Positions 2,126 through 64,000 of a stretch of DNA of 64,000 bases are shown here, in pieces. A program made the position numbers and the translations under genes. How positions within the stretch are numbered: the first letter of the stretch is position 1; each line of letters starts with the position of its first letter. The notes beneath the pieces were generated by a model. The model was not told where the DNA came from. It searched no databases and saw nothing but the letters and a program-made list of their open reading frames with translations. Where the stretch lies: positions 1 to 64,000 of the forward strand of contig JAVTVY010017520.1 of NCBI GenBank assembly GCA_036873755.1, read 5' to 3'. Origin of the DNA: Hanleya hanleyi. Lineage: Eukaryota > Mollusca > Polyplacophora > Lepidopleurida > Hanleyidae.

Positions 2126-2355
2126 GCAGTGGATCTTATCAGCAACATGACCTAACATATATGTGAACCATCACGATTTATCACCAGACTGCTCAGCTTT
2201 ACTGAACAAGTACATCGATAGTAATTACAACACATATAAGGGAAGTGGGAAGAGGTGCCGACATACTGACTGCGTCACATGACTTCACAGAATAGTCTTC
2301 TGGTTAACCTATTCTAAAGCACATCCCAGGAATCTAACGATTCGTGCTATGTGTT

Positions 2356-2450
2356 GTATCTCAGGTACGCTTTTATTGTACCTGTTCATGTGGCAACTTG
2401 GATGATATGACCACACGGCCCCTAGCACCGGCATAAGCGGTATTAGATAC
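2356..2450 (-). other. ribozyme-like structured motif, complete satellite-type copy
   Basis: Read on the minus strand: closing stem GUAUCU/AGAUAC, a small ACCG/CGGU hairpin, the invariant stretch GCUAGGGGCC, a GUGUGG/CCACAU hairpin, and a 7-bp CAGGUAC/GUACCUG hairpin with loop AAUAAAAGC. It is identical in layout to the copies of the 59.85-64-kb array. Confidence 0.5.
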
Positions 2451-2863
2451 AAATCTAGAGAGCTATGATGGAAATGCTCTGGCAACTCGTATACTGGTAA
2501 TTGGTGAGCTGTTTCGCTGTGACAACTCGTACATTGGAGATTGGTGAGCTGTATCATCGTCAGATGCAAATGACGGCATTTAACACAAAAGACTAGTCTG
2601 TAACGCCCGATGTCGACCCAGCATCAACTTCCCACAAATGCCAACATATATCAAAGACCAAAAGGTCTGTACAGGGGGCGGGCCTCGGGGACGAAACGTC
2701 CACCAGCAGAATCTCGCCATATACAGGAAAAAATTACAACACATATAAGGGAAGTGGAAGAGGTGCCGACATACTGACTGCGTCACATGACTTCACAGAA
2801 TAGTCTTCTGGTTAACCTATTCTAAAGCACATACCAGGAATCTAACGATTCGTGCTATGTGTT

Positions 2864-2930
2864 GTATCTCAGGTACGCTTTTATTGTACCTGTTCATGTG
2901 GCAACTTGGATGATATGACCACACGGCCCC
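2864..2930 (-). other. structured motif, truncated copy
   Basis: This is the 3' two thirds of the motif: the 7-bp hairpin with loop AAUAAAAGC and the GUGUGG/CCACAU hairpin. It is broken inside the GGGGCC stretch, so the closing stem has lost its 5' strand. Confidence 0.45.
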
Positions 2931-3165
2931 AACAACTACAACTACAAGAAATGTATCGTGTTCTATGTGCAAAGTATCAAACTTGTAATTAAAAGGATTT
3001 GTCAAATAATATCGTTAGAATTTACCAAGCCGTATTTATTTGGTTGTTTGTGTTCAAAGTACAGCCACAACTTTAGTCGAAATAACACGAAACTTCGTCG
3101 GGACAGCATTAAAATAATAAAGTAACCTATACACTTCCAGAAGGATCGGGTCAAATTGACCAGGT

Positions 3166-3281: not shown

Positions 3282-3289
3282 TCTGACAG

Positions 3290-4610
3290 TGTACAAGAAA
3301 AAAAAGTTCAAAAGGGCAACTAACGCACATTGGGATTTCTGATTATTTTTGGTCGAAATGTCGTCATACCTGTGCAATTAAAATGGGTGGTTTGACGCCC
3401 ACTGGGGACAGGAAGATATAATTGAGTATACACGCATTGAACATACCGGTACATGTGCAAGGCGATCTATTGTAATTGATGTTTCCTATGATGAAAGAAA
3501 GACGGGTCGCAGAATGTGATAGTGGGTCTGTGGGTAACCAGATGGCGCTTGGCGCTTCTGTCTATCATAGAATAGAATAGAATTTATTAACCAATCAGGT
3601 GCCCACGTGGAGCGTACAATCAATACCCCCCCCCCTTTCTTTGATACAATTGATTCAAACAAACATGTACAACACACAAGAAAGTTACAAATTTCTCCAA
3701 CACTGAGATCTGTTTACCATTATGAGGATCAAAGGCTAACTAGCGTTTATGAGACATGTTATTATATAATACATGTACAAATAAAGCTACCCGGAAAGTT
3801 CAGACTTAAGTTAAGAAAATTACACAGCTATATGTATTTTGTGCATTTGGGCCGAGCTTTACGTCGCTATCTTTATTTAATACATGCATGTAATTAGACC
3901 ACCCATGAGATGACTGTCTGATAAATTCTGGGAATATATATCAACAATGAAATTAGATGAGGCTGACCGATCAAGTTAGGAATGAAATAATATATATGCC
4001 CAATCGGGAATTTCTTTATGTTGATATGTACACTCAAGTCTCCTAAGTACTTTACCGTATACTTAACTATTTGGAGAAAATGATTGTTGAATTGTGAAAT
4101 AATACCGGTACTGAAATATTGACTTCTGTAGAACTTAACCTATAAACGTATCCCCAGATCTGTCCTGTTCATGTTCATCTTATTTATTCATGTTTGGGGT
4201 TCTTTTTTAATTTATTTCCATCTTTGTGCATTGTATAAACTTGGACTGGCATATTATATTGCATACAGACTATTTTGCTCTATCCAAGCTGCATGGTATC
4301 CATTTATCTGAGATGTATAATATAGATCTGCATACTATAGTCATTCGACATTCCAAAATTAGGCAACCTACAGGCTGATGATATGTAAAACAATCCTGCA
4401 TAAATTCACTGATGGTGAAGGCTGATACGGAAATACTTTATTTTCAGCTGTCGCGATTTGAAGTGGGATGATTCCAGAATGTTACACGATGTCCTTGTAG
4501 AGACACATACCCGTTAATATAATTTGGAGTTAAGAAAATTACACAGCTATATTTAGAAATGACAATTTGTAGTGTACCGTTAACATAGTAATATAGTCGT
4601 TGCCAAGCAC
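3290..4610. other. no recognisable feature
   Basis: AT-rich sequence with only short unsupported ORFs. There is a CCCCCCC tract near 3630. I see no splice-flanked coding segment or clear repeat boundary. Confidence 0.5.
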
Positions 4611-4619
4611 TTCTGAATA

Positions 4620-5006
4620 ATTCATGTCATTCATAATTCAGCCGTCGTCCATTAAAGAATATCCGCGTCCGTAATCCAAAGACCTTTTTCATATTCCATA
4701 TAACAACATTAGTACCAAATTCAAAAAGGCAATCGTAGTATACATAAGTATAGGCTAGTTTCCTGCAAGAGAGAAGCGGTTAACAGTTTTCAATGATGCC
4801 GACAAGACATCATGATGTTCTAAAAATATCAAATCCGTATCGCTGATCGGTATCCTTAACCCATAATATTCGTTGTAAAGTCGCCATCTAGAGAATGATG
4901 TATCTCAGTCACGCTTTGATTGTGGCTGTACATATGAGCACCATGAGGATTTTGAAGTACATGTGTTCATACGGCCCCTAGCCCCGGGTTATGTGGAATT
5001 AGACAC
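4620..5006 (-). repeat. 3' region of the RT retroelement, copy 1
   Basis: The reverse complement aligns over most of its length with 54598-54990. The two copies share the structured motif, then 'gatacggatttgatattttt', 'catcatgatgtcttg', 'aactgttgaccgcttctctcttgcagga' and a final 'ggacgacggctg' area. It lies directly downstream of the RT reading frame that stops at 5010. The word 'ttcagccgtcgtcc' at its far end is the unit expanded at 12.7-13.6 kb. Confidence 0.65.
4900..5006 (-). other. ribozyme-like structured motif, RT-element copy 1
   Basis: The closing stem is GUGUCU/AGAUAC, with a G-U in place of the satellite's A-U. The next hairpin is GUAUGA/UCAUAU, and the terminal hairpin CAGCCAC/GUGACUG has loop AAUCAAAGC and one mismatch. 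The motif begins three nucleotides after the TAA of the RT reading frame (5012-5010 on the minus strand). Confidence 0.5.
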
Positions 5007-5009
5007 AAG

Positions 5010-5098
5010 TTACGAAACATAACGCCATTGATCTTGCACCCTACGCTCGTATTTTGCTATCAGCATACGATATGTAAAGCCAAATTTGAGAAACTTTG
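5010..5098 (-). pseudogene. C-terminal part of the split reverse-transcriptase ORF
   Basis: On the minus strand this reads ...KFGFTYRMLIAKYER... and ends in TAA at 5010. A second copy at 54526-54594 encodes nearly the same peptide and stop. Of the six base differences I count across the aligned part, five fall in third codon positions and four are silent, which indicates past protein selection. The segment continues the RT ORF at 9150-9719: removing the element at 5099-9149 with one 2-bp CA duplicate brings the frames together. I recognise no domain in this short tail. Confidence 0.5.
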
Positions 5099-5400
5099 CC
5101 CTTACAAAAAAATCTTATAGGATCCTATAAGATTCTGAAAAATCCTATAAGATTCTGAGAAATCCTATAAGATTCTAAAAAATCCTATAAGATTCTGAAA
5201 AATCCTATAAGATTCTGAGAAAATCTTATAAGATTCTAAGAAATCCTATAAGATTAAAAAAATCCTATAAGATTCTGAAAAGTCTTATAAGATTCTAAAA
5301 AAGTCCTATAAGATTCTGAAAAATCCTATTGGATTTAATAGGATAGAAATATAATAATCCTATTGGATTTAATATGACACTCCATAGGATCAATTGTATT
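5099..5400 (+). repeat. left inverted end: ~20-bp tandem repeats
   Basis: About ten copies of aatcctataagattctgaaa with small variations (ag/aa endings, one ctt variant), followed by two 'aatcctattggattta' copies. Each unit holds the near-palindrome aatcYtataRgatt, so the array can also fold locally. Confidence 0.8.
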
Positions 5401-5409
5401 AATGATATT

Positions 5410-5607
5410 AAGAAGAGTGGAAATTGATCCCGCTCAAGTATTTCAGTGAATTATTTCACACAAGCTAATTGAATGAAGTAATTGAATGTAATTTCACCCA
5501 AACATTATTTTGCCCACCACTTCAGCGATTTATTGACTTAAGCAAAATCCACCCAACTTGATACTGGACTTCATTCAACTTGAGTGGGATCAATTTCCAC
5601 TCTTCTT
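5410..5607. mobile_element. 198-bp MITE with 30-bp near-perfect inverted repeats
   Basis: The left end (5410-5439) begins AAGAAGAGTGGAAATTGATC. The right end (5578-5607) is its reverse complement with one mismatch in 30 bp (CGCTCAA versus CACTCAA). The interior is AT-rich and non-coding. No convincing target duplication is visible. It sits inside the larger foldback-like element, so it may have jumped in later or be part of it. Confidence 0.7.
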
Positions 5608-5609
5608 GG

Positions 5610-7850
5610 GAAAAACTAATTTAACGTTTTTAGAGAGTGATGTTTATGCCGTCTTCAGTCAAGACAAATATATCTAAAATGCATTTTTGCTTGATCAGGA
5701 CAGATCCGTGAATTGCCGAGTTGCATTTGGTTTTGAAGTGAAATTGTTCGCTGGTGTACCAGAACCGGCGTGTGGTAACACAAGTTGATGAAACATCGAA
5801 TTCTAAAATTATCCACTTATTGTTTTCAGTTTTCGTATATTCAATAAAGATCTTAAATGTGATACTGTACGGTAATTATATATATATGAAGCTACACTGG
5901 TAAAAGCTCATTACATTAACGAACGTACGAGTTGATCAACAACACACGTACATGTACATGATGATAATACACCAATAAATCTAGGCTAAAATTGTTCGAA
6001 AGGAAAACAAACGATTACCGTCTACATTGCACCATATAACTAAAGTTCAAGAATGGAATGATTACATGCATATGACAAATAACCAATAAATACATTCTAT
6101 TATTAGAAAAGTATTATTTATTCCCATGATAGATAAACACATAAATCATCATGCAATGTTTTATAAAGAAATCGAATATACCGGTGATCCAATGAGTCCA
6201 CATGCCGGTTTGAGGCCTAGAACACACCACAGTGCTAACGGAAACCAGCTGAGATCCGTTTTGATCTCCCTTGATCAGGGGATCCCCCGTGATTGCAGAT
6301 GGTTAAACAGAGCGACATGACGTTCGCTACCACAAAACAACATTCTTTATTTGATCATATCGGTTTGCTATGTCTCGGTTGTTCAAACGTGATGATTTCA
6401 CAATAAACTGATAAAAGACCAAGTTCAAGCCGGAAAGGGCTCCGCCATTATGCCATTTCCTGCTGGGCAACGTCACTGAATTCCGCCGACAGATCCGCTG
6501 CGAGGGGTGACCAAAATTCCATGGCAGACATTCCATCCTCTCCCAGGGTGCTTCGCGCTGCGCTCCATTTTCCCCTGTGAGTCTCGCCATTTTTCGCAGG
6601 ATTCTTGCAAAAATCAAGAACTGTTCTATCTAACTGTTTTACTGATCGCAAAACGTATATATATTTTGAAATACACTTAACAGTTATTCAATATATTTCA
6701 AAATGCCAGTGTCATTTAGTTTGAAGGCAGCTTCTTACAAATTACCCTGGAACTATATGTTGCGGGGAAAAATATATCGGTGAGTCGCGGCTGATATCAA
6801 ATTCGCCAAGTTAGACGGTCGCCACGTTCGTTTCTGTGGCAACAGATGACATAGGTTCCCATACATATTTCGCGGCCCATCACTCCGTGTTTTATTTTAA
6901 TTTCACAGTACATTTCTTAGTTTATTTAAGATGTTTACAACGGCTATATTTTAAAATAAATAAATGAATAACAAGGAGAGGGCAGAGGAAACTTTATATA
7001 GAAAAGGAGAAGAATCGACTATGTACAATGTACAAGTTCGTCGGTCAGCTTTTGGTGGTTATACCGTTAAATATGTGTTCATTATTCATTGTAACTGTAA
7101 TCGCGGGGATAATTCCTTTGTCTTTGTACCCCTTCCTACACAAAGCCGTCCAGAGAAAAAAAACTGGAAGAACCATGGACGGATTAGGCCGCGATGCGGG
7201 TGGCATAGGCGATTTACGGATCAGACAGAGTTGTACCGACTTAGATTTCCCACAATTCTCTTTACGCATGCGCATTCATTATTACTCAAAAGCAACTCAA
7301 CGTGTCAAGTCTGTCAGTCGGCGTGTACCAAAGTAACCTCACGGCAAATATGGAACATACATTTTCACGACTGATTTATTCAATAGCAAACTACCAATCT
7401 ATCGTTCACCGTAAACTTGACAGATGGCATCTCTATACAGCTGGGCCCTGTTCGATTTTTGTATGGAAGACCCTCCAACCGCGGAAGTCGGCAACCTCCC
7501 CACAGCGCATGCTCCATTTCGCAGGCTCCAATAACATCCCTGCCTCCAATAGCGGAAGTTGACCTTTACTACGTTGCTATGACGTATAGGGGAAACCAAC
7601 CAACGCACGGTTCAGTTTGAATCCGACCAAACGACTCCTTTAGTGTTGCACATGAGCGAACTACTTTTCATATGCTCTGTCCATATAAACAGGGAAAATT
7701 ATCTCCAGATAATTCTTTTTAACGCTAGGTCAACGGAGGTATTATGCAGACTTGAAAAGTAATCAAAATATTCGTTAAACATCTATTTTACTATATATGA
7801 TGTCACTTCCGGCGATGTGCGCGAAGGCCCCGAATCCGGTCCAAAAATCT
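5610..7850. other. foldback interior, no confident gene
   Basis: Mixed sequence with a modest GC- and CpG-richer stretch at about 6.2-6.6 and 7.1-7.6 kb. Several short overlapping ORFs occur on both strands, but none shows a recognisable domain, a clear initiator context or splice boundaries. Confidence 0.4.
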
Positions 7851-10500: not shown

Positions 10501-10681
10501 TGTGACATTTCATTGACAAATACAGGGAGGTTTATTGTTTTGGTGGGGAATTTAAGTCTCACGACGTCAGGCATTACATGCTACTTTTTCTGGGTATTCT
10601 TGCATTTACCATGTTTACCACATGTGGAGGCGTTCACTCCATCAGATGCCCTCAGTGCTCATCCATTAACATCTGGCTTGC

Positions 10682-10775
10682 GTATCTATTCCGCTTAAGC
10701 CGATGCTAGGGGCCGTGTAGTTACTTCATAATCTCCACATGAACAGCTGCACTAAAAGCGTAGCTGCAGGCTACG
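10682..10775 (+). other. structured motif, divergent copy with a covarying hairpin
   Basis: The 5' closing strand GTATCT and the GCTAGGGGCC stretch are kept. The terminal hairpin is CAGCTGC/GTAGCTG (10744-10750 and 10760-10766) with loop actaaaagc. All seven positions pair (one G-U), yet the sequence differs from both the CAGGTAC/GTACCTG and CAGTCAC/GTGACTG forms. The 3' closing strand is damaged. Confidence 0.45.
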
Positions 10776-10929
10776 TACGAGAATCCTTCGTATTCCAGAG
10801 TCTGAATGTGAGGTGCCAAGAGAAGCTTTTTTGTTGAGACTTGGTTGTTTTTTAGTCGGCTGACGTCGTCAATTTTTCCCACCTCTTGCATATCTCTCCA
10901 AGTGAGAGTTAAGTGAAAGTATCCAAAAT

Positions 10930-12705: not shown

Positions 12706-13650
12706 GAATATGGGGCCAATACTCTTACGTTTCCTTGCCTTTTGAATCCTCTTCCCGCTGAATGACATCAACCGCTTCCTAGCAAGCGACAGATTCGACA
12801 TTCAATCGTCGTCCATAAAAATATGCGCCACATCCGACATCCAATATTCAGCCGTCGTCTATAAAAGTATGCGTCACATCCGACATCCAATATTCAGCCG
12901 TCGTCTATAAAAGTATGCGTCACATCCGACATTCAATATTCAGCCGTCGTCCATAAAAGTATGCGTCACATTCAAAATCCAATATTCAGCCGTCCATAAA
13001 AGTATGCGTCACATCCGACATCCAATATTCAGCCGTCGTCCATAAAAGTATGCGTCCCATCCGACATCCAATATTCAGCCGTCGTCTATAAAGTATGCGT
13101 CACATCCGACATCCAATATTCAGCCGTCGTCTATAAAAGAATGTCTGCGTCAATATTCGAAAGACCTATTTCGTATTTCGAATATGGGGCCAATACTCTT
13201 ACGTTTCCTTGCCTTTTGAATCCTCTTCCCGCTGAATGACATCAACCGCTTTCTAGCAAGCGACAGATTCGACATTCAATCGTCGTCCATAAAAGTATGC
13301 GTCACATCCGACATCCAATATTCAGCCGTCGTCTATAAAAGTATGCGTCACATCCGACATCGAATATTCAGCCGTCGTCTATAAAAGTATGCGTCACATC
13401 CGACATTCAATATTCAGCCGTCGTCCATAAAAGTATGCGTCACATTCAAAATCCAATATTCAGCCGTCCATAAAAGTATGCGTCACATCCGACATCCAAT
13501 ATTCAGCCGTCGTCCATAAAAGTATGCGTCACATCCGACATCCAATATTCAGCCGTCGTCTATAAAGTATGCGTCACATCCGACATCCAATATTCAGCCG
13601 TCGTCAATAAAAGAATGTCTGCGTCAATATTCGAAAGACCTATTTCGTAT
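12706..13650. repeat. 49-bp minisatellite in two 474-bp blocks
   Basis: The unit is about 49 bp: ttcagccgtcgtctataaaa, then gtatgcgtcacatccgacat, then ccaata. There are about seven units in each of two blocks. Each block starts with 'gaatatggggccaatactc' (12706 and 13180, so a 474-bp period). Both blocks share the same internal variants: one unit lacks 'tcgt', one reads 'cacattcaaaatcc', one has 'tataaagt'. So the whole array was duplicated rather than expanded unit by unit. The same unit occurs once at the end of the RT-element 3' region near 4635-4680. Confidence 0.85.
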
Positions 13651-13659
13651 GACAGCGCC

Positions 13660-13900
13660 AATTCTAAATGTGTATGAAATAGAAATAATAAAAACACAAG
13701 GTGGTTTCTCACAAGAGGGAAGACGTCACTAATTTTCAATGACGACAGTAAGGCATGATGATATTCTTTACAATAAATCCTAATCACTTATTATCTCCAT
13801 CCAAACGAATTTTCAAGTCGATCTCCATGGTATGTATCTCACTCGCGCTTTGAGTTTGATCGTTTATTTGAATACGATGGAGATGTACAAACGATATGGT
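13660..13900 (-). repeat. relic of the RT-element 3' region
   Basis: 'ttctcacaagagggaagacgtcac..attttcaatgac', 'gatgatattctttac' and 'tatctcactcgcgctttga' follow the order seen at 4757-4920 and 47569-47715. The structured motif is damaged beyond its 3' arm. Confidence 0.5.
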
Positions 13901-23394: not shown

Positions 23395-23870
23395 TCTTTC
23401 TCGAGTATTGCGCCAGGTACAGTTTTATGCCATTCTTTCTCGAGTATTTCGCCAGGTACAGTTTTATGTCATTCTTTCTCGAGTATTGCGCCAGGTACAG
23501 TTTTATGTCATTCTTTCTCGAGTATTGCGCCAGGTACAGTTTTATGTCATTCTTTCTCGAGTATTGCGCCAGGTACAGTTTTATGTCATTCTTTCTCGAG
23601 TATTGCGCCAGGTACAGTTTTAGGTCATTCTTTCTCGAGTATTGCGCCAGGTACAGTTTTATGTCATTCTTTCTCAAGTATTGCGCCAGGTACAGTTTTA
23701 TGTCATTCTTTCTCGAGTATTGCGCCAGGTACAGTTGTATGTCATTCTTTCTCGAGTATTGCGCCAGGTACAGTTTTTTGTCATTCTTTCTCGAGTATTG
23801 CGCCAGGTACAGTTTTATGTCATTCTTTCTCGAGTATTGCGCCAGGTATAGTTTTATATCATTCTATTCG
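23395..23870 (+). repeat. 39-bp minisatellite, unit 1 (12 copies)
   Basis: The unit is tttctcgagtattgcgccag plus gtacagttttatgtcattc, 39 bp. Since 39 is a multiple of 3, both strands read open through the array, giving artefact proteins of the FLEYCARYSFMSF type. The A blocks contain a single copy (near 19970), the likely seed. Variants occur in a fixed order: a 'ttaggtcattc' copy, then later a 'ctcaagtatt' copy. Confidence 0.9.
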
Positions 23871-29290: not shown

Positions 29291-30149
29291 CTGGAATAAA
29301 AATAAACTCGACGGTTATTCTTAAGCGTCCGACATTCACAAACAAATGTGGTCAATTATTTTTGACTGGAGCTATAGTGTACCATGGGATATCTTACACG
29401 ACTAAAACAAAAAATCCGAAAGAAAGGAAAGTGGAAAATATCATAGAGTTTAAATCAAATTTTCTGTTGAGGTTCAATCGGTCTAGTACAACATCACCAG
29501 ATCTCTTCCAGATGGAGCAACGTCCAGTTCTTCATTTAGTCGCTTGTGCAATGAGAGATTCACAGTCAATAATTTGTCAATCAATTCTACGACGTTTGCG
29601 ATAGTAAGAGCTTCTTCTAATCGAGCAGTTAGTTTGGAAGATCTTTTCGCTCGTGTGAGAACAGATTTGGTGGTATATTATATGAGAGCAATTAATTTGG
29701 TTTTGATCTAAATGTATCAGATTGATGGTGTACGTCGCTTATAGATGAAACAATGCTGAACTCGATTTTGCGGTTAATTTTGTTTCTCGAGTATAGCGGC
29801 AGGTACAGTTTTATGTCATTCTAATGGGATTTGAACCAGGTTCATCTGGTCTAGTTCAACAGCACCAGATCTCTTCCAGATGGAGCAATATCTAATTCTT
29901 CTTTCAGTCAGTTGTGCAATGAGAGATTCACAGTCAATAATTTGGCAATCAGTCCTACAAAGTTTGCGATAGTAAGCGCTTCTTCTTATCGAGCAGTTTG
30001 GAAGATCTTTTCGCTCGTGTGAGAACAGATTTGGTTCTATATTATTTGTGAGCCTTTGGTTTGGTTTTAATGAAAATGTATCAGATTGATGGTGCTAGTC
30101 GCTTTATAGCTGAAATAATGCTGAACGCGATTTTGTGTTTAATTTTCTT

Positions 30150-30580
30150 TCTCGAGTATTGCGCCAGGTACAGTTTTATGCCATTCTTTCTCGAGTATTT
30201 CGCCAGGTACAGTTTTATGTCATTCTTTCTCGAGTATTGCGCCAGGTACAGTTTTATGTCATTCTTTCTCGAGTATTGCGCCAGGTACAGTTTTATGTCA
30301 TTCTTTCTCGAGTATTGCGCCAGGTACAATTTTATGTCATTCTTTCTCGAGTATTGCGCCAGGTACAGTTTTAGGTCATTCTTTCTCGAGTATTGCGCCA
30401 GGTACAGTTTTATGTCATTCTTTCTCAAGTATTGCGCCAGGTACAGTTTTATGTCATTCTTTCTCGAGTATTGCGCCAGGTACAGTTTTATGTCATTCTT
30501 TCTCGAGTATTGCGCCAGGTACAGTTTTATGTCATTCTTTCTCGAGTATTGCGCCAGGTATAGTTTATATCATTCTATTC
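30150..30580 (+). repeat. 39-bp minisatellite, unit 2 (11 copies)
   Basis: Same unit and same order of variant copies as unit 1, with one repeat fewer and a one-base deletion in the last unit (tagtttatat). Confidence 0.9.
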
Positions 30581-31035
30581 TGATTTGAACCTCTTACATA
30601 TCTCACCATTTTAACAAATATGTTATGGCTAATTAAAAGGAATACAAATCTGCGAAGTTTGAGATATGTGGTGATTCAAAACTCTATATACAATCCAGAT
30701 AATCTACATTCAGATTTGCGGTGCTGTGGCCTTTATGTCCGAATCTTGTCCTCACAAAACTTCCACATCAGGACACAATTAATCCAATGAAATCTTTGCT
30801 TAACGCTCAAACATTTACACCTTCTTAACATATCGATACGATGTGTTTGTTGTCACATTCCAGGATAATTCACATTGCTCGGTTTTGAATTATCTGAGTT
30901 ATTTGTGTTTCTCCCGTTGTAGCCAAATATTGTTGAACAACAATCAGTAAGAGGTAGAATCAAAGTATTATACAATATCAGGGGGACGGGGGGGGGGGGG
31001 ATCCGTTTCAGTATTCCAATATTTTTCTCCATTTC

Positions 31036-36484: not shown

Positions 36485-36958
36485 TATCTTTCTCGAGTAT
36501 TTCGCCAGGTACAGTTTTATGTCATTCTTTCTCGAGTATTGCGCCAGGTACAGTTTTATGTCATTCTTTCTCGAGTATTGCGCCAGGTACAGTTTTATGT
36601 CATTCTTTCTCGAGTATTGCGCCAGGTACAGTTTTATGTCATTCTTTCTCGAGTATTGCGCCAGGTACAGTTTTATGTCATTCTTTCTCGAGTATTGCGC
36701 CAGGTACAGTTTTAGGTCATTCTTTCTCGAGTATTGCGCCAGGTACAGTTTTATGTCATTCTTTCTCAAGTATTGCGCCAGGTACAGTTTTATGTCATTC
36801 TTTCTCGAGTATTGCGCCAGGTACAGTTTTATGTCATTCTTTCTCGAGTATTGCGCCAGGTACAGTTTTTTGTCATTCTTTCTCGAGTATTGCGCCAGGT
36901 ACAGTTTTATGTCATTCTTTCTCGAGTATTGCGCCGGGTATAGTTTTATATCATTCTA
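36485..36958 (+). repeat. 39-bp minisatellite, unit 3 (12 copies)
   Basis: Same unit. The first 'tatgccattc' copy of units 1 and 2 is missing. The 'taggtcattc' and 'ctcaagtatt' markers keep their relative spacing. Confidence 0.9.
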
Positions 36959-39014: not shown

Positions 39015-42000
39015 GAAGGTTAACATTCACCTCTAGACGTGAAATACCACTATTCTGTGTCTTTGGTAAAATTACTGTCCACATTCCTGAGCTGTTTCCG
39101 AGATTTATTTCAATTTCAGCTTTTCTGCGTAGAGAAATAGTCACTATTATTTGTTAGGACAGCATGTTTAAGATACTGGTCCCTCACACTTTTTTCAGTC
39201 TCATCACAATGCCATTTAAGGTTTTGTTTACCTAAAGTTTTCTGTTCAATGGAAAAAACTACTACGTAACACTGTCAAATAATGCTTTTAAGGATAAAGT
39301 TTTTTGAAAATTTGGTTCCTAAAATATTTTAAGCAGATTATGTTGGAGGGTCCGGTACCCCGTTCGTAACAGATTAACCTTTCGTGAGACTGTGTATTGT
39401 GAGGCGGTAATGACTGCACGAGTGTGAATTGTACTCTAATTGATTGCATGGAATGACCAGCCTAGCTGTCTGACAGATCTGTGACAAGTACTCAAAACAG
39501 TGACAGTTTGCTCAGACACACGCCGTGCAGCGATCAGCACAGGTGTGAAAATTTTCCAGCATCACAAATTTTACCATGTTAACGGCTAAAAATGAATACT
39601 CTTTGTACGAAAGATATCTGGAATAAGTAGGTTGGTGAGTAGGTACTGTATGGCAGGATCTAAAATGTATTTTGTAACAGAATTCAAGAGAAATCTTAGA
39701 ATTATTTCTTCAAATGTATAGCTGGACGGTATTTGCCCGATTTGTAGTATTTTACGTTTTTGCTAAAATTCAAGTTTTCTTATCGTATTTTTCGAAGAGT
39801 GTTCATGATACGCTTGTGAAATTTGGCATGCCTGTTATTTACGTTGTGATGTAGTCAACGACCTCTCAGTTTTCATAAGCTGGGCTTAGTTTTTGAATTA
39901 TTCAACTTTAATGTAGAAAGTTGTAAGATAATCGGTTTTTTCAATTCATTTTAGTTAAAATGCTATAAAAATAGACCTAGGCAAAATTTAAAATAAACTG
40001 AGACGCTGTTTACTAATTTCAGTTGTCTTTGATCAAGGTATGCCATCAAATTTGAAATATGTTAAACAGTGTTTATGAAATTTCAATTAAAAAATGGAGG
40101 CTATTGTTTTCATTTCCTTTTTCTTTTAATTGTGAAAATTTTCTACAAGGTAGTAACAACAGTTTCTCAGAACATACGCCTTCATATACATACATTATTA
40201 TTGTTATGTTTAATATTTAGTGCTAGGGAGCACCAATTATCAAGGAGTGCATAAAACTGCCTCGGGGGGAGGGGGGGTTACGTGTCATTGACGCCCACGT
40301 CTCATTGATGACCATGTCTCATCAACGCGGTCAAACAATTCAATGATATTTCAAGGTATCTAAATAAGCTTCAACGATCAGTTTGTTGAAGTTTCTCCCA
40401 TGTAAAAATCTATGTTGATTATGGAATCCTCTCTTTCCAAACATAACATTGGTCAGTAGGTCTTCTGTTACGTTAGCAAGAGCAATCTAGGGATGATGGA
40501 AGCGTCAGGCCAGAGAGGACGTCCGTCTACCCCCCTCCCCCCCCCTCACTCAAGAGCGGCGTCCAAGGATCAACTTTGTCCCCCAATATTTAAGACAGAA
40601 GTGCTATGAAATGGGCCGTAAATTGGTAGCGAAGCGTCTGAAATCTCAAAATGTTTTGATGGAGTAATCTCGCCCCTTTTTAAACTTCATGAGTCCAAAT
40701 TGATCGTGACTAGTTTTAAATTGCAGTTTGTTTGCTATATGCTAACTTCTTCCCAGTGTTTGTTCTATCTGACTTAGTGTTAACTCCAGCAACGATCAGC
40801 ACAGTCTTCATGAATTATCAGTTCGCTAAAAAAAGTTAATTAGCACCGAAAATTGCCGGGTTTGGCACCCACAACTTCAAGCAATTCAGCTTTGCATTTA
40901 TGCAACAACTTATGCATCGATGAATTTGCCTTCTCTTGCAGAGGTATTAGAAGTTGAATTTGGCTTAAACTTACGAAAAGATGGAACACCAAGATTTTTT
41001 TGCCTCTTTGGAAGAGGCAGAACGGCGGATATTGTGACAATTTTTACCGTAAAATGTTCTCTGAAAATGCGCCAAAGTACGTAAAATGAAGAGTAGGTCT
41101 TTTTTTAATTTTATGGGGAGGGCCTCAGGTTCCCCACCTCGCCTCAGAGGAAAACGCCTTCCCAATCCCATCCCTGATTTGACACCCTCCCCCAGTGTTG
41201 AATTGCTTCCGCCGCCCATCGCCTGCAACCCCACTACCAAACTGTAGATTATAGCGAGTTGGAAGAGTTAGGGCAATGCAGGTTTCAGTTTTGTCAGTTA
41301 TTATTGTTGGTTGAGTAACGTATTGAGAATTAAACGTAACATAGCAACCTGAGGGTGGTGGCAAAATATGTCGGCGTACTGGCAAGGGATCATAAGATAC
41401 AAACGGCTAGTCCGTCATTCATGGACCCCACAGGCCAATACATTGACGGCATTATATCTAAACACATCACAAGAACTGTTTATGTCGACGTCTTGATTGG
41501 TGTCACCACGCGGTCTTTGGCACCGGTTTAAGTGGTATTAGAGATAAATATTCAAGAGCGATGATGTAATTACACTGATGTAATACTCGGAGGATCTTTT
41601 GCATTTAAAAGTTAGCACCAAGTTCGCTTCTTGCACGAAATAAACTGACACCATTTCCGACGGTGGGACATCCTGCTGTTCTGTTACTTGTATTTGTACC
41701 ACTGCCAAGTATTCCTTGATCCAAATGAACTTTCAAGTCGCCTAGTTTATTAGACTGACAACATTTCTCAAAAGTGTACTTCGAGAGGCATTTTATTGTA
41801 GGAAAGCTCGAATCATATGTTTTTGGGCCTGCGGAATTCGAAAATGCCGTATACCAAGCTGAGTGTTATGCTCAAAATTTAAAAAAATCCAAGATGACGG
41901 CCAAAATTACCTAAATGAAATATGTCACCATGTACTAGTCTAAAAAAATGTTGTTACCCCTTTGGCTGGGAACTGAAGCTTTCTCTGGATTAATTGGCAA

Positions 42001-47564: not shown

Positions 47565-47830
47565 ATTTCCTGCAAGAGAGAAGCGGTCAGCAGTTTTCAA
47601 TGACGACCGCTATTTCTTTACAAAAGATCGTTATCAGTGACCAGTATACTTTATCCAAATGTATTACCAAGCCGTTTTCTAGAGTGTGATGTATCTGAGT
47701 CATGCTTTGATTGTGCTTGTTCATTTGAACACTATGGATTATTAAAGTCATGAAGTTTAAACGGCCCATTGTACAAGGTTTTAGCGAAATTAGACATAAG
47801 TTACGATACGTAGCTTCAGAGATCTTTATC
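47565..47830 (-). repeat. RT-element 3' region relic with damaged structured motif
   Basis: 'cctgcaagagagaagcggtcagcagttttcaatgac' matches 4763-4795. The motif at 47691-47796 keeps GTATCT, the loop 'gctttgatt' and 'taatttcgct', but the terminal hairpin is mismatched. Confidence 0.55.
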
Positions 47831-52546: not shown

Positions 52547-52744
52547 GAAAATATAGTTTACCATTAATTGTCACTGAAACCTTGACGACAATGGTCTTTC
52601 TCGCGTGCTTGACTGTGGTGCAATATTTCAAAAGCGGACAAACATTGTCAGTCACGGTTGAAAGTATTGCTAACCATAGTATAATCATGATTTTTAACAC
52701 CTAAATTTGCATACGGGACTTTATAACGGACAGGGCATATTTGA

Positions 52745-52825
52745 TTTCTTGGGGTCGTGTGGACATGTCCACATGCTGGACATGTCCACATGCACACCAA
52801 CAATAAAAGCGTGGCTGGGATACAA
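52745..52825 (+). other. divergent structured-motif fragment
   Basis: 'ggggtcgtgtggacatgtcc' leads to a duplicated 'ggacatgtccacatg' and then 'caataaaagcgtggctgggatac'. The 3' arm of the motif is recognisable and the middle hairpin is replaced by an internal repeat. Confidence 0.4.
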
Positions 52826-53300
52826 ATTATCACAGGGATCAGTTTTCGGAAATATTCATTCGACACATTTGCCTACGGGGTCATATGCCTTGTTATTAAT
52901 ACACCCGCATCTTTTCTCACTATTTCTGTTATGTTGCCTTTAATTCGGTTAGCTAACGACATATTTTACTTCAGATTGAAAAACTTGCAAAATCTTATTC
53001 CATATGTGCAGCATTTATCGCCACTAAATTTCACTCCGATGCCGTTAAAATGCTAATAATGTATGTTCACCACGCTTCAGATATGTAAACAAACTATCAT
53101 ATCAACTGTGCATGTATTTAATCAAATAATTGCCCTATGTTTGTAACTATATATCACGCTTTCTCTAATGAATAATATAGATGATCAAAACAATAATTTA
53201 TCAGAAATCTTCAACCAGCTTTCGTGAGCATAAAAAAGGAAATTGTGATCATAAAGGCGGAACATTTTACAAAAAAGCTCAGAAAACACACCAAACTTAC

Positions 53301-54415: not shown

Positions 54416-54525
54416 TGTTTCGACCCCCACCCCTAATATTTTTCTGATTCCACACTATACCCTTGGGTCAAACGCTAAGTAAATGCAAAGAATCAAGATG
54501 GTCGCACTGGTGACGTCATAGTGAC
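54416..54525 (+). mobile_element. piggyBac-like MITE fragment
   Basis: 'taatatttttctgattccac', 'actatacccttgggtcaaac' and 'gatggtcgcactggtgacgt' match the MITE interior. It ends abruptly where the RT C-terminal sequence begins. Confidence 0.6.
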
Positions 54526-54594
54526 GATACATATCGCATGCTGATAGCAAAATACGAACGTAGCGTGCAAGATCTATGGCGCTACGTTTCGTAA
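54526..54594 (+). pseudogene. RT C-terminal fragment, copy 2
   Basis: Reads TYRMLIAKYERSVQDLWRYV and then stop TAA at 54592, the same peptide as 5098-5010 with two amino-acid changes. It is truncated at its 5' side by the MITE fragment. Confidence 0.5.
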
Positions 54595-54990
54595 CTTGTG
54601 TCTAATTCCGCTTAACCCGGGGCTAGGGGCCGTATGAACCCATGTACTTCAAGATCCTCATGGTACTCATATGAACAGTCACAATCAAAGCGTGACTGAG
54701 ATACATCTTTTTTTTAGATGACGACTCTATAACGAATATTATGGATTAAGAATACTGATCAGCGATACGGATTTGATATTTTTGGAACATCATGATGTCT
54801 TGCCGGCATCATTGAAAACTGTTGACCGCTTCTCTCTTGCAGGAAACAAGCCTATGTTTGTGTATACTATGATTGTCTTTTTGAATTTGGTGCTAATACT
54901 GTTATGTGGAAAATGGAATAGGTCTTTGGATTATGGACGCGGATATTCTCTAATGGACGACGGCTGGATTATGAATGACGGACTAGACGC
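54595..54990 (+). repeat. 3' region of the RT element, copy 2
   Basis: Follows the RT stop. It contains the structured motif and then the same series of words as 4900-4620 (reverse strand), ending 'ggacgacggctggattatga'. Confidence 0.65.
54598..54704 (+). other. ribozyme-like structured motif, RT-element copy 2
   Basis: Closing stem GTGTCT (54598-54603) with AGATAC (54699-54704). Middle hairpin GTATGA (54632-54637) with TCATAT (54667-54672). Terminal hairpin CAGTCAC (54676-54682) with GTGACTG (54692-54698), loop aatcaaagc. Compared with the satellite form, two pairs in each of the middle and terminal hairpins have changed on both sides. Confidence 0.55.
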
Positions 54991-55448
54991 TTGTAATTCA
55001 TCTCTTGCATATCGTTCCAATTGGATCCTCCTGACCTTCCCTAGGCGATAGATGCTGCGCTCTTGAGGAATGAAAATAGATGTGGGAGACCCGAACCATT
55101 CAGTGGATCGGCCGAAACATCATGTGCGGACTCCACGTGACACTGGTTGAAAGAAGGATATGATCTCTACTCTCGAAATTTATGAACAGTAAGACTCTTC
55201 AGATGTGTAGACCATATCGCTGTGAATTCACTAAGAAATCTAAGAAATGTCAGACTATGGTTTTTTGCAATGATGGTGGTGTTATGTTACTAAGAGATTT
55301 TGTTAGAAGTGTTTACAAAGTGCCCGAGTCTAGAAAACTTGAAGAGTTATTTTTGACCCGTGTACCACATACGGAGACCATTTACGAGAACTGACAAACC
55401 AATGCAGAAAATATGGTGGCCGATAAGGGACATCGCTAGGTATGTGGT

Positions 55449-55876
55449 TTGGTAACACGAAGGCAGGATGCGAAGCACGAAGGCAGGATGCGAAGCGCGA
55501 AGTCCAAACACGAAGGCAGGATGCGAAGTGCGAAGGCAGGATGCGAAGTGCGAAGGCAGGATGCGAAGCGCGAAGACAGGATGCGAAGCGCGAAGGCAGG
55601 ATGCGAAGCGCGAAGGCAGGATGCGAAGCGCGAAGTCCAAACACGACTTCGCGCTTCGCATCCTGCCTTCGTGTTTGGACTTCGCGCTTCGCATCCTGCC
55701 TTCGTGTTTGGACTTCGCGCATCCTGCCTTCGCGCTTCGCATCCTGCCTTCGTGTTTGAACTTCGCGCTTCGCATCCTGCCTTCGCGCTTCGCATCCTGC
55801 CTTCGTGTTTGGACTTCACGCTTCGCATCCTGCCTTCGTGTTTGGACTTCGCGCTTCGCATCCTGCCTTCGTGTTA
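55449..55876. repeat. left arm repeats, themselves folded back at ~55644
   Basis: Units of cgaaggcaggatgcgaagcg, some followed by cgaagtccaaaca, run forward to about 55643 and then in reverse complement to 55876. The array is therefore a palindrome about 430 bp long. All ORFs through it, on six frames, are artefacts of its high GC and lack of stops. Confidence 0.85.
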
Positions 55877-55879
55877 CCA

Positions 55880-56630
55880 AAGCCCACCCAACCACCCGCG
55901 TTTTAAGTATATACCCAAGTCTTAAGTATATACCCAAGTATTTTTTAACATACATGTATATCACCAAGTTGAAATTTTCCAGTATTCTTAATGCTGAGAG
56001 ATTTTGTTACCGACAACTGATTGATTTAGTCAAATTTATTATCAAGGCTGGGGATTTAAAAAATTTGATCCTTTATTTTTTCCTGTTTAGTTTTAATTTT
56101 GCGTCCAACTTCATTTGTCGTCCTCCATATTTTGTAATCATATTCTGGTCCTGTGATACAATTATATATACCAGTATTTAATATGTTAAGTTTCTGTGAT
56201 ACAGTATGATATGTAATACTATTATGCTTGGTTTCTGTGAAACATTTATTGTATGTTTTCCAATCTTATGTAAAATTTCCGACCATATTATTATTGTATA
56301 GCAGATGTCGTGATTGATATGAAGAATTTCCGACGATATATCCGACGTTAAAATATTAACGGATGACGCTGTCTTCAATAAAATCGAGCATAAATGAACT
56401 ATACTTTGAATCAAGAAAATCAGCGATTTTGACTGTATCGAGTGACGAAATGGTTCCGGTAATAAAGAAAGACTGGTCTTGTACTCGTGTATCTAAGCAT
56501 ATACAGACTTTATTCTTCATGTAAACCATCCCGACGAGAAAGGCGACTATACTCTGATCTCGGCATTGGTAAATAAAATAATTCAAATGGCGGCCTGGCC
56601 TCGCTTTCATCGGGTCATGCGCAGCGGCAC
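55880..56630. other. core of foldback-like element 2
   Basis: AT-rich and unlike the arms. A direct repeat 'ttaagtatatacccaagt' occurs twice at 55902-55940. A minus-strand open stretch at about 56370-56620 reads GMVYMKNKVCICLDTRVQDQ. No transposase or host domain is recognised. Confidence 0.4.
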
Positions 56631-56636
56631 TTGTTT

Positions 56637-56940
56637 TGACCTGCCTTCGTGTTTGGACTTCGCGCTTCGCATCCTGCCTTCGCACTTCGCATCCTGCCTT
56701 CGTGTTTGGACTTCGCACTTCGCATCCTGCCTTCGTGTTTGGACTTCGCGCTTCGCATCCTGCCTTCGCGCTTCGCATCCTGCATTCGTGTTTGAACTTT
56801 GCACTACGCATCCTGCCTTCGCGCTTCGCATCCTGCCTTCGTGTTTGGACTTCGCGCTTCGCATCCTGCCTTCGCACTTCGCATCCTGGCTTCGTGTTTG
56901 GACTTCGCGCTTCGCATCCTGCCTTCGTGTTACCAAACCA
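56637..56940 (-). repeat. right arm repeats
   Basis: Inverted copies of the ~22-bp unit (cgcttcgcatcctgccttcg) interspersed with 'tgtttggacttcg'. Confidence 0.85.
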
Positions 56941-59840: not shown

Positions 59841-60160
59841 ATTGGGGGGAATTCCACTTCCCTTATATGTGTTGTAATTTTTACCTGTATATGGCGAGAT
59901 TCTGCTGGTGGACGTTTCGTCCCCGAGGCCCGCCCCCTGTACAGACCTATTGGTCTTTGATATATGTTGGCATTTGTGGGAAATTGATGCTGGGTCGACA
60001 TCGGGCCTTACAGACTAGTCTTTTGTGTTAAATGCCGTCATTTAGATCTGACGACGAGACAGCTCACCTATCTCCAATGTACGAGTTGTCACAGGGAAAC
60101 AGCTCACCAATTACCAGTATACGAGTTGTCAGAGCATTTCCATCATAGCTCTCTAGATTT

Positions 60161-60255
60161 GTATCTAATACCGCTTATGCCGGTGCTAGGGGCCGTATGG
60201 TCATATCATCCAAGTTGCCACATGAACAGGTACAATAAAAGCGTACCTGAGATAC
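60161..60255 (+). other. structured motif, array copy 1
   Basis: Same fold as copy 2. The middle hairpin has GTATGG opposite CCACAT, leaving one A-C mismatch. Confidence 0.5.
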
Positions 60256-60669
60256 AACACATATCACGAATCTTTAGATTCTTGGTATGGGCTTTAGAAT
60301 AGGTTTACCAGAAGACTATTCTGTGAAGCCATGTGACGCAGTCAGTGTGTCGGCACCTCTTCCCACTTCCCTTATATGTGTTGTAATTTTTACCTGTATA
60401 TGGCGAGATTCTGCTGGTGGACGTTTCGTCCCCGAGGACCGCCCCCTGTACAGACCTTTTGGTCTTTGATATATGTTGGCATTTGTGGGAAGTTGATCCT
60501 GAGTCGACATCGGGCCTAACAGACTAGTCTTTTGTGTTAAATGCCGTCATTTAGATCTGACGACGAGACAGCTCACCTATCTCCAATGTATGAGTTGTCA
60601 CAGCGAAACAGCTCACCAATTACCAGTATACGAGTTGTCAGAGCATTTCCATCATAGCTCTCTAGATTT

Positions 60670-60764
60670 GTATCTAATACCGCTTATGCCGGTGCTAGGG
60701 GCCGTGTGGTCATATCATCCAAGTTGCCACATGAACAGGTACAATAAAAGCGTACCTGAGATAC
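60670..60764 (+). other. structured motif, array copy 2 (reference)
   Basis: GTATCT (60670-60675) pairs with AGATAC (60759-60764). ACCG/CGGT forms a small hairpin. GTGTGG (60704-60709) pairs with CCACAT (60727-60732). CAGGTAC/GTACCTG form a 7-bp hairpin closing a nine-base loop, AATAAAAGC. The GCTAGGGGCC segment stays unpaired in this model. Confidence 0.55.
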
Positions 60765-61178
60765 AACACATATCACGAATCGTTAGATTCTTGGTATGGG
60801 CTTTAGAATAGGTTTACCAGAAGACTATTCTGTGAAGCCATGTGACGCAGTCAGTATGTCGGCACCTCTTCCTACTTCCCTTACATGTGTTGTAATTTTT
60901 ACCTGTATATGGCGAGATTCTGCTGGTGGACGTTTCGTCCCCGAGGCCCGTCCCCTGTACAGACCTTCTGGTCTTTGATATATGTTGGCATTTGTGGGAG
61001 GTAGATGCTGGGTCGACATCGGGCCTCACAGACTAGTCTTTTGTGTTAAATGCCGTCATTTAGATCTGACGACGAGACACCTCACCTATCTCCAATGTAC
61101 GAGTTGTCACAGCGAAACAGCTTACCAATTACCAGTATACGAGTTGTCAGAGCATTTCCATCATAGCTCTCTAGATTT

Positions 61179-61273
61179 GTATCTAATACCGCTTATGCCG
61201 GTGCTAGGGGCCGTGTGGTCATATCATCCAAGTTGCCACATGAACAGGTACAATAAAAGCGTACCTGAGATAC
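61179..61273 (+). other. structured motif, array copy 3
   Basis: All stems as in copy 2. Confidence 0.5.
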
Positions 61274-61687
61274 AACACATATCACGAATCGTTAGATTCT
61301 TGGTATGGGCTTTAGAATAGGTTCACCAGAAGACTATTCTGTGAAGCCATGTGACGCAGTCAGTATGTTGGCACCTCTTCCCACTTCCCTTATATGTGTT
61401 GTAATTTTTACCTGTATATGGCGAGATTCTGCTCGTGGACGTTTCGTCCCCGAGGCCCGCCCCCTGTACAGACCTTTTGGGCTTTGATATATGTTGGCAT
61501 TTGTGGGAAGTTGATGCTGGGTCGACATCGGGCCTAACAGACTAGTCTTTTGTGTTAAATGCCGTCATTTACATCTGACGACGATACAGCTCACCAATCT
61601 CCAATGTATGAGTTGTCACAGCGAAACAGCTCACCAATTACCAGTATACGAGTTGTCAGAGCATTTCCATCATAGCTCTCTAGATTT

Positions 61688-61782
61688 GTATCTAATACCG
61701 CTTATGCCGGTGCTAGGGGCCGTGTGGTCATATCATCCAAGTTGCCACATGAACAGGTACAATAAAAGCGTACCTGAGATAC
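61688..61782 (+). other. structured motif, array copy 4
   Basis: All stems as in copy 2. The monomer downstream has lost the 'ttagattcttggtat' stretch. Confidence 0.5.
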
Positions 61783-62158
61783 AACACATATCACGAATCG
61801 CGGCTTTAGAATAGGTTAACCAGAAGACTATTCTGTGAAGTCATGTGACGCAGTCAGTATGTCGGCACCTCTTCCTACTTCCCTGTATATGGCGAGATTC
61901 TGCTGGTGGACGTTTCGTCCCCGAGGCCCGCCCCCTGTACAGACCTTCTGGTCTTTGATATATGTTGGCATTTGTGGGAAGTAGATGCTGGGTCGACATC
62001 GGGCCTCACAGACTAGTCTTTTGTGTTAAATGCCGTCATTTAGATCTGACGACGAGACAGCTCACCTATCTCCAATGTACGAGTTGTCACAGCGAAACAG
62101 CTCACCAATTACCAGTATACGAGTTGTCAGAGCATTTCCATCATAGCTCTCTAGATTT

Positions 62159-62253
62159 GTATCTAATACCGCTTATGCCGGTGCTAGGGGCCGTGTGGTC
62201 ATATCATCCAAGTTGCCACATGAACAGGTACAATAAAAGCGTACCTGAGATAC
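62159..62253 (+). other. structured motif, array copy 5
   Basis: All stems as in copy 2. Confidence 0.5.
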
Positions 62254-62664
62254 AACACATATCACGAATCGTTAGATTCTTGGTATGGCTTTAGAATAGG
62301 TTTACCAGAAGACTATTCTGTGAAGCCATGTGACGCAGTCAGTATGTCGGCACCTCTTCCCACTTCCCTTATGTGTTGTAATTTTTACCTGTATATGGCG
62401 AGATTCTGCTGGTGGACGTTTCGTCCCCGAGGCCCGCCCCCTGTACAGACCTTTTGGTCTTTGATATATGTTGGCATTTGTGGGAAGTTGATGCTGGGTC
62501 GACATCGGGCCTTACAGACTAGTCTTTTGTGTTAAATGCCGTCATTTAGATCTGACGACGAGACAGCTCACCTATCTCCAATGTACGAGTTGTCACAGCG
62601 AAACAGCTCACCAATTACCAGTATACGAGTTGTCAGAGCATTTCCATCATAGCTCTCTAGATTT

Positions 62665-62759
62665 GTATCTAATACCGCTTATGCCGGTGCTAGGGGCCGT
62701 GTGGTCATATCATCCATGTTGCCACATGAACAGGTACAATAAAAGCGTACCTGAGATAC
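62665..62759 (+). other. structured motif, array copy 6
   Basis: All stems intact; one loop change (catccatgttg). Confidence 0.5.
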
Positions 62760-63171
62760 AACACATATCACGAATCGTTAGATTCTTGGTATGGGCTTTA
62801 GAATAGGTTTACCAGAAGACTATTCTGTGAAACCATGTGACGCAGTCAGTATGTTGGCACCTCTTCCCACTTCCCTTATATGTGTTGTAATTTTTACCTG
62901 TATATGGCGAGATTCTGCTGTGGACGTTTCGTCCCCGAGGCCCGCACCCTGTACAGACCTTTTGGTCTTTGATATATGTTGGCATTGTGGGAAGTTGATG
63001 CTGGGTCGACATCGGGCATTACAGACTAGTCTTTTGTGTTAAATGCCGTCATTTACATCTGACGACGATACAGCTCACCAATCTCCAATGTACGTGTTGT
63101 CACAGCGAAACAGCTCACCAATTACCAGTATACGAGTTGTCAGAGCATTTCCATCATAGCTCTCTATATTT

Positions 63172-63266
63172 GTATCTAATACCGCTTATGCCGGTGCTAG
63201 GGACCGTGCGGTCATATCATCCAAGTTGCCACATGAACAGGTACAATAAAAGCGTACCTGAGACAC
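63172..63266 (+). other. structured motif, array copy 7
   Basis: The closing stem is weakened (AGACAC opposite GTATCT), and GGGGCC is changed to GGGACC. Confidence 0.45.
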
Positions 63267-63679
63267 AACACATATCACGAATCGTTAGATTCTTGGTATG
63301 TGCTTTAGAATAGGTTAACCAGAAGACTATTCTGTGAAGCATATGACGCAGTCAGTATGTCGGCACCTCTTCCCACTTCCTTATATGTGTTGTAATTTTT
63401 ACCTGTATATGGCGAGATTCTGCTGGTGGACGTTTCGTCCCCGAGGCTCCGCCCCCTGTACAGACCTTTTGGTCTTTGATATATGTTGGCATTTGTGGGA
63501 AGTTGATGCTGGGTCGACATCGGGCCTTACAGACTAGTCTTTTGTGTTAAATGCCGTCATTTACATCTGACGACGATACAGCTCACCTATCTCCAATGTA
63601 CGAGTTGTCACAGCGAAACAGCTCACCAATTACCAGTATACGAGTTGTCAGAGCATTTCCATCATAGCTCTCTAGATTT

Positions 63680-63774
63680 GTATCTAATACCGCTTACGCC
63701 GGTGCTAGGGGCCGTGTGGTCATATCATCCGAGTTGCCACATGAACACGTACAATAAAAGCGTACCTGGGATAC
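63680..63774 (+). other. structured motif, array copy 8
   Basis: The 3' arm reads CTGGGATAC, and the terminal hairpin has one mismatch (CACGTAC). It appears to be decaying. Confidence 0.45.
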
Positions 63775-64000
63775 AACACATATCACGAATCGCTAGATTC
63801 TTGGTATGGGCTTTAGAATAGGTTTACCAGAAGACTATTCTGTGAAGCCATGTGACGCACTCAGTATGTCGGCACCTCTTCCTTCTTCCCTTATGTGTGT
63901 TGTAATTTTTACCTGTATATGGCGAGATTCTGCTGGTGGACGTTTCGTCCCCGAGGCCCGCCCCCTGTACAGAGCTTTTGGTCTTTGATATATGTTGGCA

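Follow-up and report, generated by a model that had tools for sequence, protein, structure and literature searches.

A covarying RNA fold shared by a satellite and a Penelope-like element in Hanleya hanleyi

Hammerhead ribozymes have reportedly been described in Penelope-like elements (PLEs) by Cervera and De la Pena in 2014, and Craig et al. are said to have described, in 2021, PLEs with an N-terminal endonuclease, the Chlamys and Naiad clades. To our knowledge this N-terminal-endonuclease branch lacks canonical hammerheads, and we know of no report of the fold presented here from PLEs of the Chlamys or Naiad type. The hammerheads of other PLEs are compact structured RNAs located in the pLTR/ORF region and present in tandem copies (PMC11167929, PMC6431247). 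In the anole PLE the hammerhead overlaps the start of the ORF, at the junction of the pLTR with the next ORF, and reverse transcription starts internally, near the pLTR/ORF junction (PMC11167929). Animal non-LTR retrozymes are tandem satellites with one type I hammerhead per unit, and most classical animal type I hammerheads are reported inside such retrozymes (PMC7229834).

The fold that we describe in Hanleya hanleyi is likewise a compact structured RNA of the pLTR/ORF region, found in tandem copies. Its stems differ from those of the hammerhead, its self-cleavage is putative, and it lies just after the stop codon, at the opposite end of the pLTR from the anole hammerhead (which overlaps the ORF start), so the parallel between the two is one of region and not of exact place. 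The satellite that carries the same fold resembles retrozymes (PMC7229834) in its short tandem repeats, its single structured RNA per unit, its high copy number and its apparent lack of autonomy. Retrozyme units measure 150-450 bp and contain a hammerhead (PMC7229834), whereas the satellite unit is about 509 bp long and gave no hammerhead in Rfam scans. The PLE that carries the fold has a GIY-YIG domain upstream of the reverse transcriptase (RT) and is arranged in tandem units, as are PLEs of the Chlamys and Naiad type.

The fold spans about 100 nt and consists of a closing stem, P1, around two 7-bp hairpins, P3 and P4, with the near-constant single strands CTAATNCCGCT, GCTAGGGGCC, ATGAAC and AATNAAAGC. 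Positions within it are counted from the first G of GGGG in GCTAGGGGCC (position 0). Three families are distinguished: the satellite form (fam1), the form of the copy at 54598 (fam2) and a third form, first seen in genome loci (fam3). The stems of fam1 are TGTATCT/AGATACA (P1), CGTGTGG/CCACATG (P3) and CAGGTAC/GTACCTG (P4); P1 continues straight into P4, whose 7 bp carry a 9-nt loop. A preliminary description of this DNA had listed stem variants and constant loops, and these were recovered: P1 is TGTATCT or TGTGTCT with AGATACA, P3 is CGTGTGG/CCACATG or CGTATGA/TCATATG, P4 is CAGGTAC/GTACCTG, CAGTCAC/GTGACTG or CAGCTGC/GTAGCTG, and the single strands are near-constant across copies. Genome loci add CAGCTAC/GTGGCTG to the P4 variants, and locus L010 adds CGTTTGA/TCAAATG to those of P3. 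The AAGC of the P4 loop may pair with GCTT; this contact showed no covariation in the 16-copy alignment described below. The P4 loop (for example 60743-60751) reads AATAAA in fam1 and fam3 and AATCAAA in fam2, and a poly(A) signal considered there was rejected as incidental or family-specific, AAUAAA not being kept in fam2. An alternative small hairpin, (A/U)CCG-7nt-CGG(U/G), has A-U as its first pair in 7/16 rows and U-G in 5/16.

Copies were located with a covariance model (R1) built from the 16-copy alignment (A1) and run on the window, by which we mean the whole 64-kb stretch of DNA analysed. R1 gave 18 matches at E<=1, 16 of these at E<1e-6; three window copies (10680, 54596 and 60668) are included in the model, the other satellite units and the copies at 2354, 2862 and 4898 come from families already represented in it, and those at 41452, 47689 and 52719 are more independent. 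The motif had been claimed for five places, and direct reading together with R1 places it in all of them: 54598-54704 (+), 2356-2450 (-), 4900-5006 (-), 10682-10775 (+) and, as eight copies, 60157-63776 (+). The features of the window are the following.

54596..54705, + strand: motif, fam2 (PLE) copy (R1 match 54594-54706, E 7.3e-25)
54522..54998, + strand: whole 5'-truncated fam2 copy (homology to 5076-4626)
4898..5010, - strand: motif, second fam2 copy (R1 E 1e-21)
47689..47801, - strand: diverged fam2 motif (R1 E 3.7e-10)
10678..10776, + strand: motif of another lineage, P4 CAGCTGC/GTAGCTG (R1 E 2.4e-19)
41452..41549, - strand: diverged motif copy (R1 E 1.5e-7)
52751..52846 (3' end approximate), + strand: fam3-type copy that starts at GGGG within the motif, upstream half absent (R1 match 52719-52825, E 3.6e-8)
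2223..2930, - strand: fam1 satellite insertion, starting at GGGGCC within a motif and ending at GTGTTGTAATT
59852..64000, + strand: fam1 satellite array, unit about 509 bp, extending past the window edge
60157..60257, + strand: motif, satellite unit 1 (R1 match)
60666..60766, + strand: motif, satellite unit 2 (R1 match and folding)
61175..61275, + strand: motif, satellite unit 3 (R1 match)
61684..61784, + strand: motif, satellite unit 4 (R1 match)
62155..62255, + strand: motif, satellite unit 5 (R1 match)
62661..62761, + strand: motif, satellite unit 6 (R1 match)
63168..63268, + strand: motif, satellite unit 7 (R1 match)
63676..63776, + strand: motif, satellite unit 8 (R1 match)
60419..60431, + strand: second small hairpin, GGACG TTT CGTCC, recurring in other satellite units (PLE form in locus L091 from 4563)

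Successive motifs of the array are spaced by 509, 509, 509, 471, 506, 507 and 508, and the helices of unit 2 occupy 60668-60675/60759-60766 (P1), 60703-60709/60727-60733 (P3) and 60736-60742/60752-60758 (P4). The satellite insertion at 2223..2930 has one full motif (2354-2454, -), and the R1 matches at 2862-2949 (-) and 52719-52825 (+) are copies without the upstream half of the motif. The copy at 54596 has P1 TTGTGTCT/AGATACA, P3 GTATGA/TCATAT and P4 CAGTCAC/GTGACTG; the truncated element around it starts at -104, contains the end of the RT frame, the motif and a pLTR-like stretch, and has the final letters GCTTGTAATT. A fixed order of stems had been stated for all copies, and the stems and loops are as stated except at 10678..10776, a decayed copy without the 3' half of P1.

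The window holds other repeats as well. Diverged pieces of the 3' part of fam2 lie in and next to a 46-bp tandem repeat, itself part of a 474-bp unit that is duplicated (13097-13170 and 13571-13879, minus; 12800-13143 and 13274-13617), and the 46-bp repeat may derive from the PLE end. Three similar arrays of a 39-bp repeat (23395-23865, 30145-30581 and 36487-36957), about 6.3-6.8 kb apart, seem to belong to longer repeated segments whose open frames are alike; the frames tested near them (20202, 22721, 26824 and 33316) gave no Pfam match. Arrays of 20/33/53-bp repeats (CTTCGCGCTTCGCATCCTGC-like) occur at 55454-55881 and 56640-56937 in direct and inverted orientation.

Covariation was scored in two alignments: A1, whose 16 rows were chosen for diversity, nearly all out of 79 distinct extracted motif sequences, and a second alignment of 57 matches in 35 of 113 loci, fitted to R1. 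All copies come from one genome in which few lineages carry changes, and the statistics are not tree-aware. In A1, 89.8% of cells pair, and the covariation score is 0.215 compared with 0.140 +/- 0.013 in shuffles (0/500 as high) and at most 0.096 in slid controls; cells with two-sided changes number 22, compared with 7.5 +/- 2.6 in shuffles and at most 9 in slid controls. The 57-match alignment scores 0.167 against 0.122 +/- 0.006, again with 0/500 shuffles as high and slid controls at or below 0.061, and has 34 two-sided cells (slid, at most 20). The earlier suggestion of selection on RNA structure is therefore upheld by a covariation score that no shuffle (0/500) and no slid control equals, whereas cruder pair counts are not above controls. 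Six pairs show any two-sided change in each alignment, a count reached by 32/500 shuffles and by the slide of +3 (also 6) for A1, and by 58/500 shuffles and the slides of +1 (7) and +3 (12) for the 57 matches. Further pair types are weak in both alignments, the observed value being reached by 88/500 shuffles for A1 and by 16/500 for the larger set.

The changes themselves fall at a few pairs. At the fourth pair of P4, which had been singled out as variable, A1 contains C-G, U-A, G-C and U-G, and at pair 5 it contains C-G, U-G and U-A. In P3, pair 4 is G-C (10), A-U (4), U-A (1) or G-U (1), and pair 7 is G-C or A-U. The two-sided changes claimed for the stems at large are thus found in P3 and P4 and hardly in P1, where nearly all changes are one-sided (G-U for A-U). 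The RNAalifold consensus contains P3, P4 and a CC-CU/AG-GG pairing, and does not contain P1. Because of these one-sided changes and this omission, P1 rests on 87% paired cells and on single-sequence folds.

Folding of single sequences recovers P1, P3 and P4 in all three families. The sense strand folds with z-scores against shuffles of -2.79 (fam1), -2.08 (fam2) and -2.19 (fam3), and the antisense strand with -1.27, -0.14 and +0.19, respectively. Among 329 cells of the three helices there are 42 G-U and 11 A-C combinations, an excess indicating that selection probably acts on the sense RNA. Covariation, sense-strand folding and the G-U excess point to selection on sense RNA and not on a DNA hairpin.

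The preliminary description had placed the fold at the 3' end of a retroelement as well as in a satellite; that retroelement is a PLE, in which the module follows the stop codon. A tandem array (loci L091 and L092) consists of units of about 3.62 kb whose self-repeats are 95-97% identical, with a GIY-YIG frame, an RT frame, a stop, the motif and a pLTR-like stretch in that order; the motif starts 1 base past the stop codon of the RT frame. One unit of L092 has GIY-YIG (3151-3456) upstream of an RT match (3901-6000), as separate frames with a satellite insertion (3806-3918) between them. PF01541 scores 23.0 bits in L092:3151-3456, over the cut-off of 22.6, and 16.9 bits in L091:4256-5062, under it. 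PF00078 has two matches that fall short of its curated cut-off (29.6 bits), one in L092:3901-6000 (5.9e-05, 23.3 bits) and one in L092:482-2110 (22.3 bits), and the L091 frame 5661-6959 has no Pfam match. The 699-codon RT frame, P0001, starts beside the antisense satellite copy at L092 3806-3918 and is therefore not a whole protein. Of 8,000 candidates scored, 643 are relatives of P0001 at E<=1e-3, the best being 50% identical; among the 120 relatives listed, some have PF00078 or PF01541 and one (P0064) has both. P0001 also contains the letters CDC, which we take to be the CxC motif typical of N-terminal-endonuclease PLEs (Chlamys, Naiad). From the domain order, the Pfam matches and the relatives of P0001, we call the carrier a PLE with the endonuclease upstream of the RT, and the feature is very probably a structured cis-acting RNA of that element.

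On contig C152, three tandem PLE units each contain a satellite copy in antisense orientation (L091 1944-2050 and 5566-5678; L092 3806-3918, all minus). Their upstream junction letters are identical in the three units, so the array was probably amplified after the insertion.

Homology between fam1 and fam2 is limited to the motif (54596-54705 against 60159-60256). Among the 12 cross-family rows listed for the fam2 query, 11 begin at -30 and one at -32, some of the loci overlapping. Judged by these boundaries, the motif is a module whose flanks are unrelated between families. A search of the genome (2.48 Gb in 52,793 contigs) counted the motif pattern 20,229 times, the fam2 stretch 15,104 times and the fam3 stretch 65 times, each with 0 in the reversed control, and a 32-base fam1 stretch allowing <=3 mismatches gave 33,135 near matches. 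No relatives were found among viral contigs and phages.

Copies of the satellite and of the PLE have a sharp 3' terminus in common, TTGTAA followed by 0-3 bases, with differing DNA beyond. It lies 370 nt from position 0 in fam2 and 198 nt in fam1. Among copies that do not read through, 53/65 of fam2 and 22/32 of fam1 end at TTGTAA +0..3, counts that omit matches ending >60 nt before the terminus or of <80% identity and that include some overlapping, not fully independent loci; 7 fam2 and 26 fam1 copies read through the terminus, and 1 fam1 copy is at a contig edge. Just 3' of the terminus is a small hairpin, GGACG TTT CGTCC in fam1 and GGACA AGT TGTCC in fam2, a two-sided change between the families. 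This hairpin is possibly a candidate RT-binding signal, and by analogy the shared terminus resembles the internal RT start of the anole PLE.

A sharp 5' end was not seen upstream, where starts are scattered. Three window copies of three families start at GGG(G) within the motif after T-rich sequence (2930 -, 52751 + and ~10269 +). A 5' terminus at GCTA/GGGG was considered and rejected: it was doubtful in L084 and occurred in 0/30 fam2 loci (L031-L060) and 0/20 junction windows. In those 20 fam2 5'UTR junction windows (sampled from 104 sites), 11 run through the motif, 7 have no match and 2 start within the motif at different places (~-18 and ~-14). A cluster of starts at -24..-10 (~6/11 fam1, 2/13 fam2 and 3/16 fam3) was likewise set aside as post hoc and small; it counts hand-read own-family starts between -160 and -5, and one fam1 and one fam2 case resemble internal deletions. 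Genome counts in 32-base windows do not reveal a 5' terminus within the motif for the bulk of copies (33,135 at +8, 31,156 at -12 and 32,459 at -32) and say little, because they are non-monotonic and swamped by local decay.

The fold had been said to match no known class, and the scans agree. Rfam at gathering scores found nothing in the 64-kb window, hammerhead included, and at E<=0.5 no family, hammerhead included, in L092 1-6500. At E<=10 there are two matches each in 54560-54740 and 60640-60800, far below gathering scores and to unrelated families. Literature searched by title and abstract opening contained no description of the fold. The further suggestion of a strongly diverged known class was not borne out for twister, which is the least probable of the readings considered here. 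The letters CUAAUNCCGC..GCCGGUGCUAG..AAUAAAAGCG presumably resemble the twister core; on visual inspection the opening 26 bases of fam1 do so in order and spacing, and some fam1 copies start 3' of CUAAU, where twister would cut, although these numbers are small and post hoc. The similarity is found in fam1 and fam3, is not significant, and goes with a different topology: P4 is on the wrong side of a would-be twister P2. The twister loop CAAGCCC is absent. The letters CUAA are present in the motif; partners for the two L4 pseudoknots (T1, T2) that surround the U-A cleavage site of twister were not found by eye. Local alignment to the one twister sequence printed in PMC12236469 gave scores that were reached, in two sets of 2000 shuffles, by 86 and 93 for fam1, 207 and 229 for fam3, and 1247 and 1227 for fam2. 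The Rfam twister models matched neither 54560-54740 nor 60640-60800 at E<=10, and twister-P1 (RF03160) had 0 matches over cut-off genome-wide and 11 at E<=10 (best E 0.094; 61/125,999 candidates scored), with below-cut-off matches also in 10/14 control genomes.

Self-cleavage by an unrecognised fold is, by analogy, the most likely mechanism in our judgement, and we propose it tentatively. The module would cut tandem read-through transcripts once per unit, as hammerheads do in other PLEs and in retrozymes, and reverse transcription seems to begin elsewhere, at TTGTAATTT, immediately before the small hairpin of the next unit. We favour a substitute self-cleaving ribozyme because one PLE that has been tested carries its hammerhead at the opposite end of the pLTR and because the satellite is built like hammerhead retrozymes. 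Two facts lower its probability slightly, the difference in position from the anole hammerhead and the failure of some pair counts against controls. The missing clean 5' end counts neither strongly against nor for a ribozyme, because uncleaved RNA of the anole PLE was the main insertion substrate in vitro, and the authors state that no RNA-seq reads ended at the cleavage site (PMC11167929). The broader proposal is that a new class of self-cleaving ribozyme, built from the closing stem, the two hairpins that covary and a contact between loops, replaces the hammerhead in N-terminal-endonuclease PLEs and drives satellites of retrozyme type that number tens of thousands of copies. Taken as a whole it is possible, and we regard it with some doubt.

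A close rival, also possible, is that the module is no ribozyme and binds or packages the PLE reverse transcriptase/endonuclease, in RNP assembly or template choice. PLE RTs share ancestry with telomerase RT, and telomerase RNA also has a pseudoknot and hairpins; protein-binding RNAs, too, show constant single strands with covarying stems, and what the satellite and the PLE have in common is the module and the 3' terminus. The ends of retrocopies, however, lie next to another conserved hairpin, 198 nt past GGGG in fam1 and 370 nt past it in fam2, and the protein-binding stretch hypothesised for the tested PLE, in the first 172 nt of the ORF, is downstream of the place of the module (PMC11167929). 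RT start therefore seems not to need the module nearby, and a role in it is less likely than processing, the RT start being 200-370 nt away beside another hairpin. That host factors process the module or set the fate of the RNA, either as a tRNA-like four-way junction that RNase P or tRNase Z would cut or as a 3'UTR stability or translation element, is improbable. P1 runs straight into the 7-bp P4, as an acceptor stem would into a T arm, the small (A/U)CCG hairpin fits the place of the D arm, and a start 1 base after the stop codon is a 3'UTR position; yet ARAGORN found no tRNA in the window, P4 has 7 bp with a 9-nt loop instead of 5 bp with a T-loop, and AAUAAA in the P4 loop, AAUCAAA in fam2, is no conserved poly(A) signal. 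We consider it very improbable that the inverted repeats have no function, descending from a single ancestral repeat and altered in their stems by chance or gene conversion. The use of a single genome, the decay of many copies, two-sided changes in few lineages and pair counts not above slid controls would fit such an origin, but one pair of P4 and one of P3 each show three Watson-Crick types, and this, the sense-strand G-U excess and the unrelated flanks speak against it.

The covarying module beside the pLTR suggests what hammerhead-less PLEs with an N-terminal endonuclease may use instead. It offers a short candidate for a ribozyme class, one form of which has some 33,000 near matches in a single genome. 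Should it not cleave, the module would still be a candidate cis signal for a group of retroelements about whose mechanism little is known.
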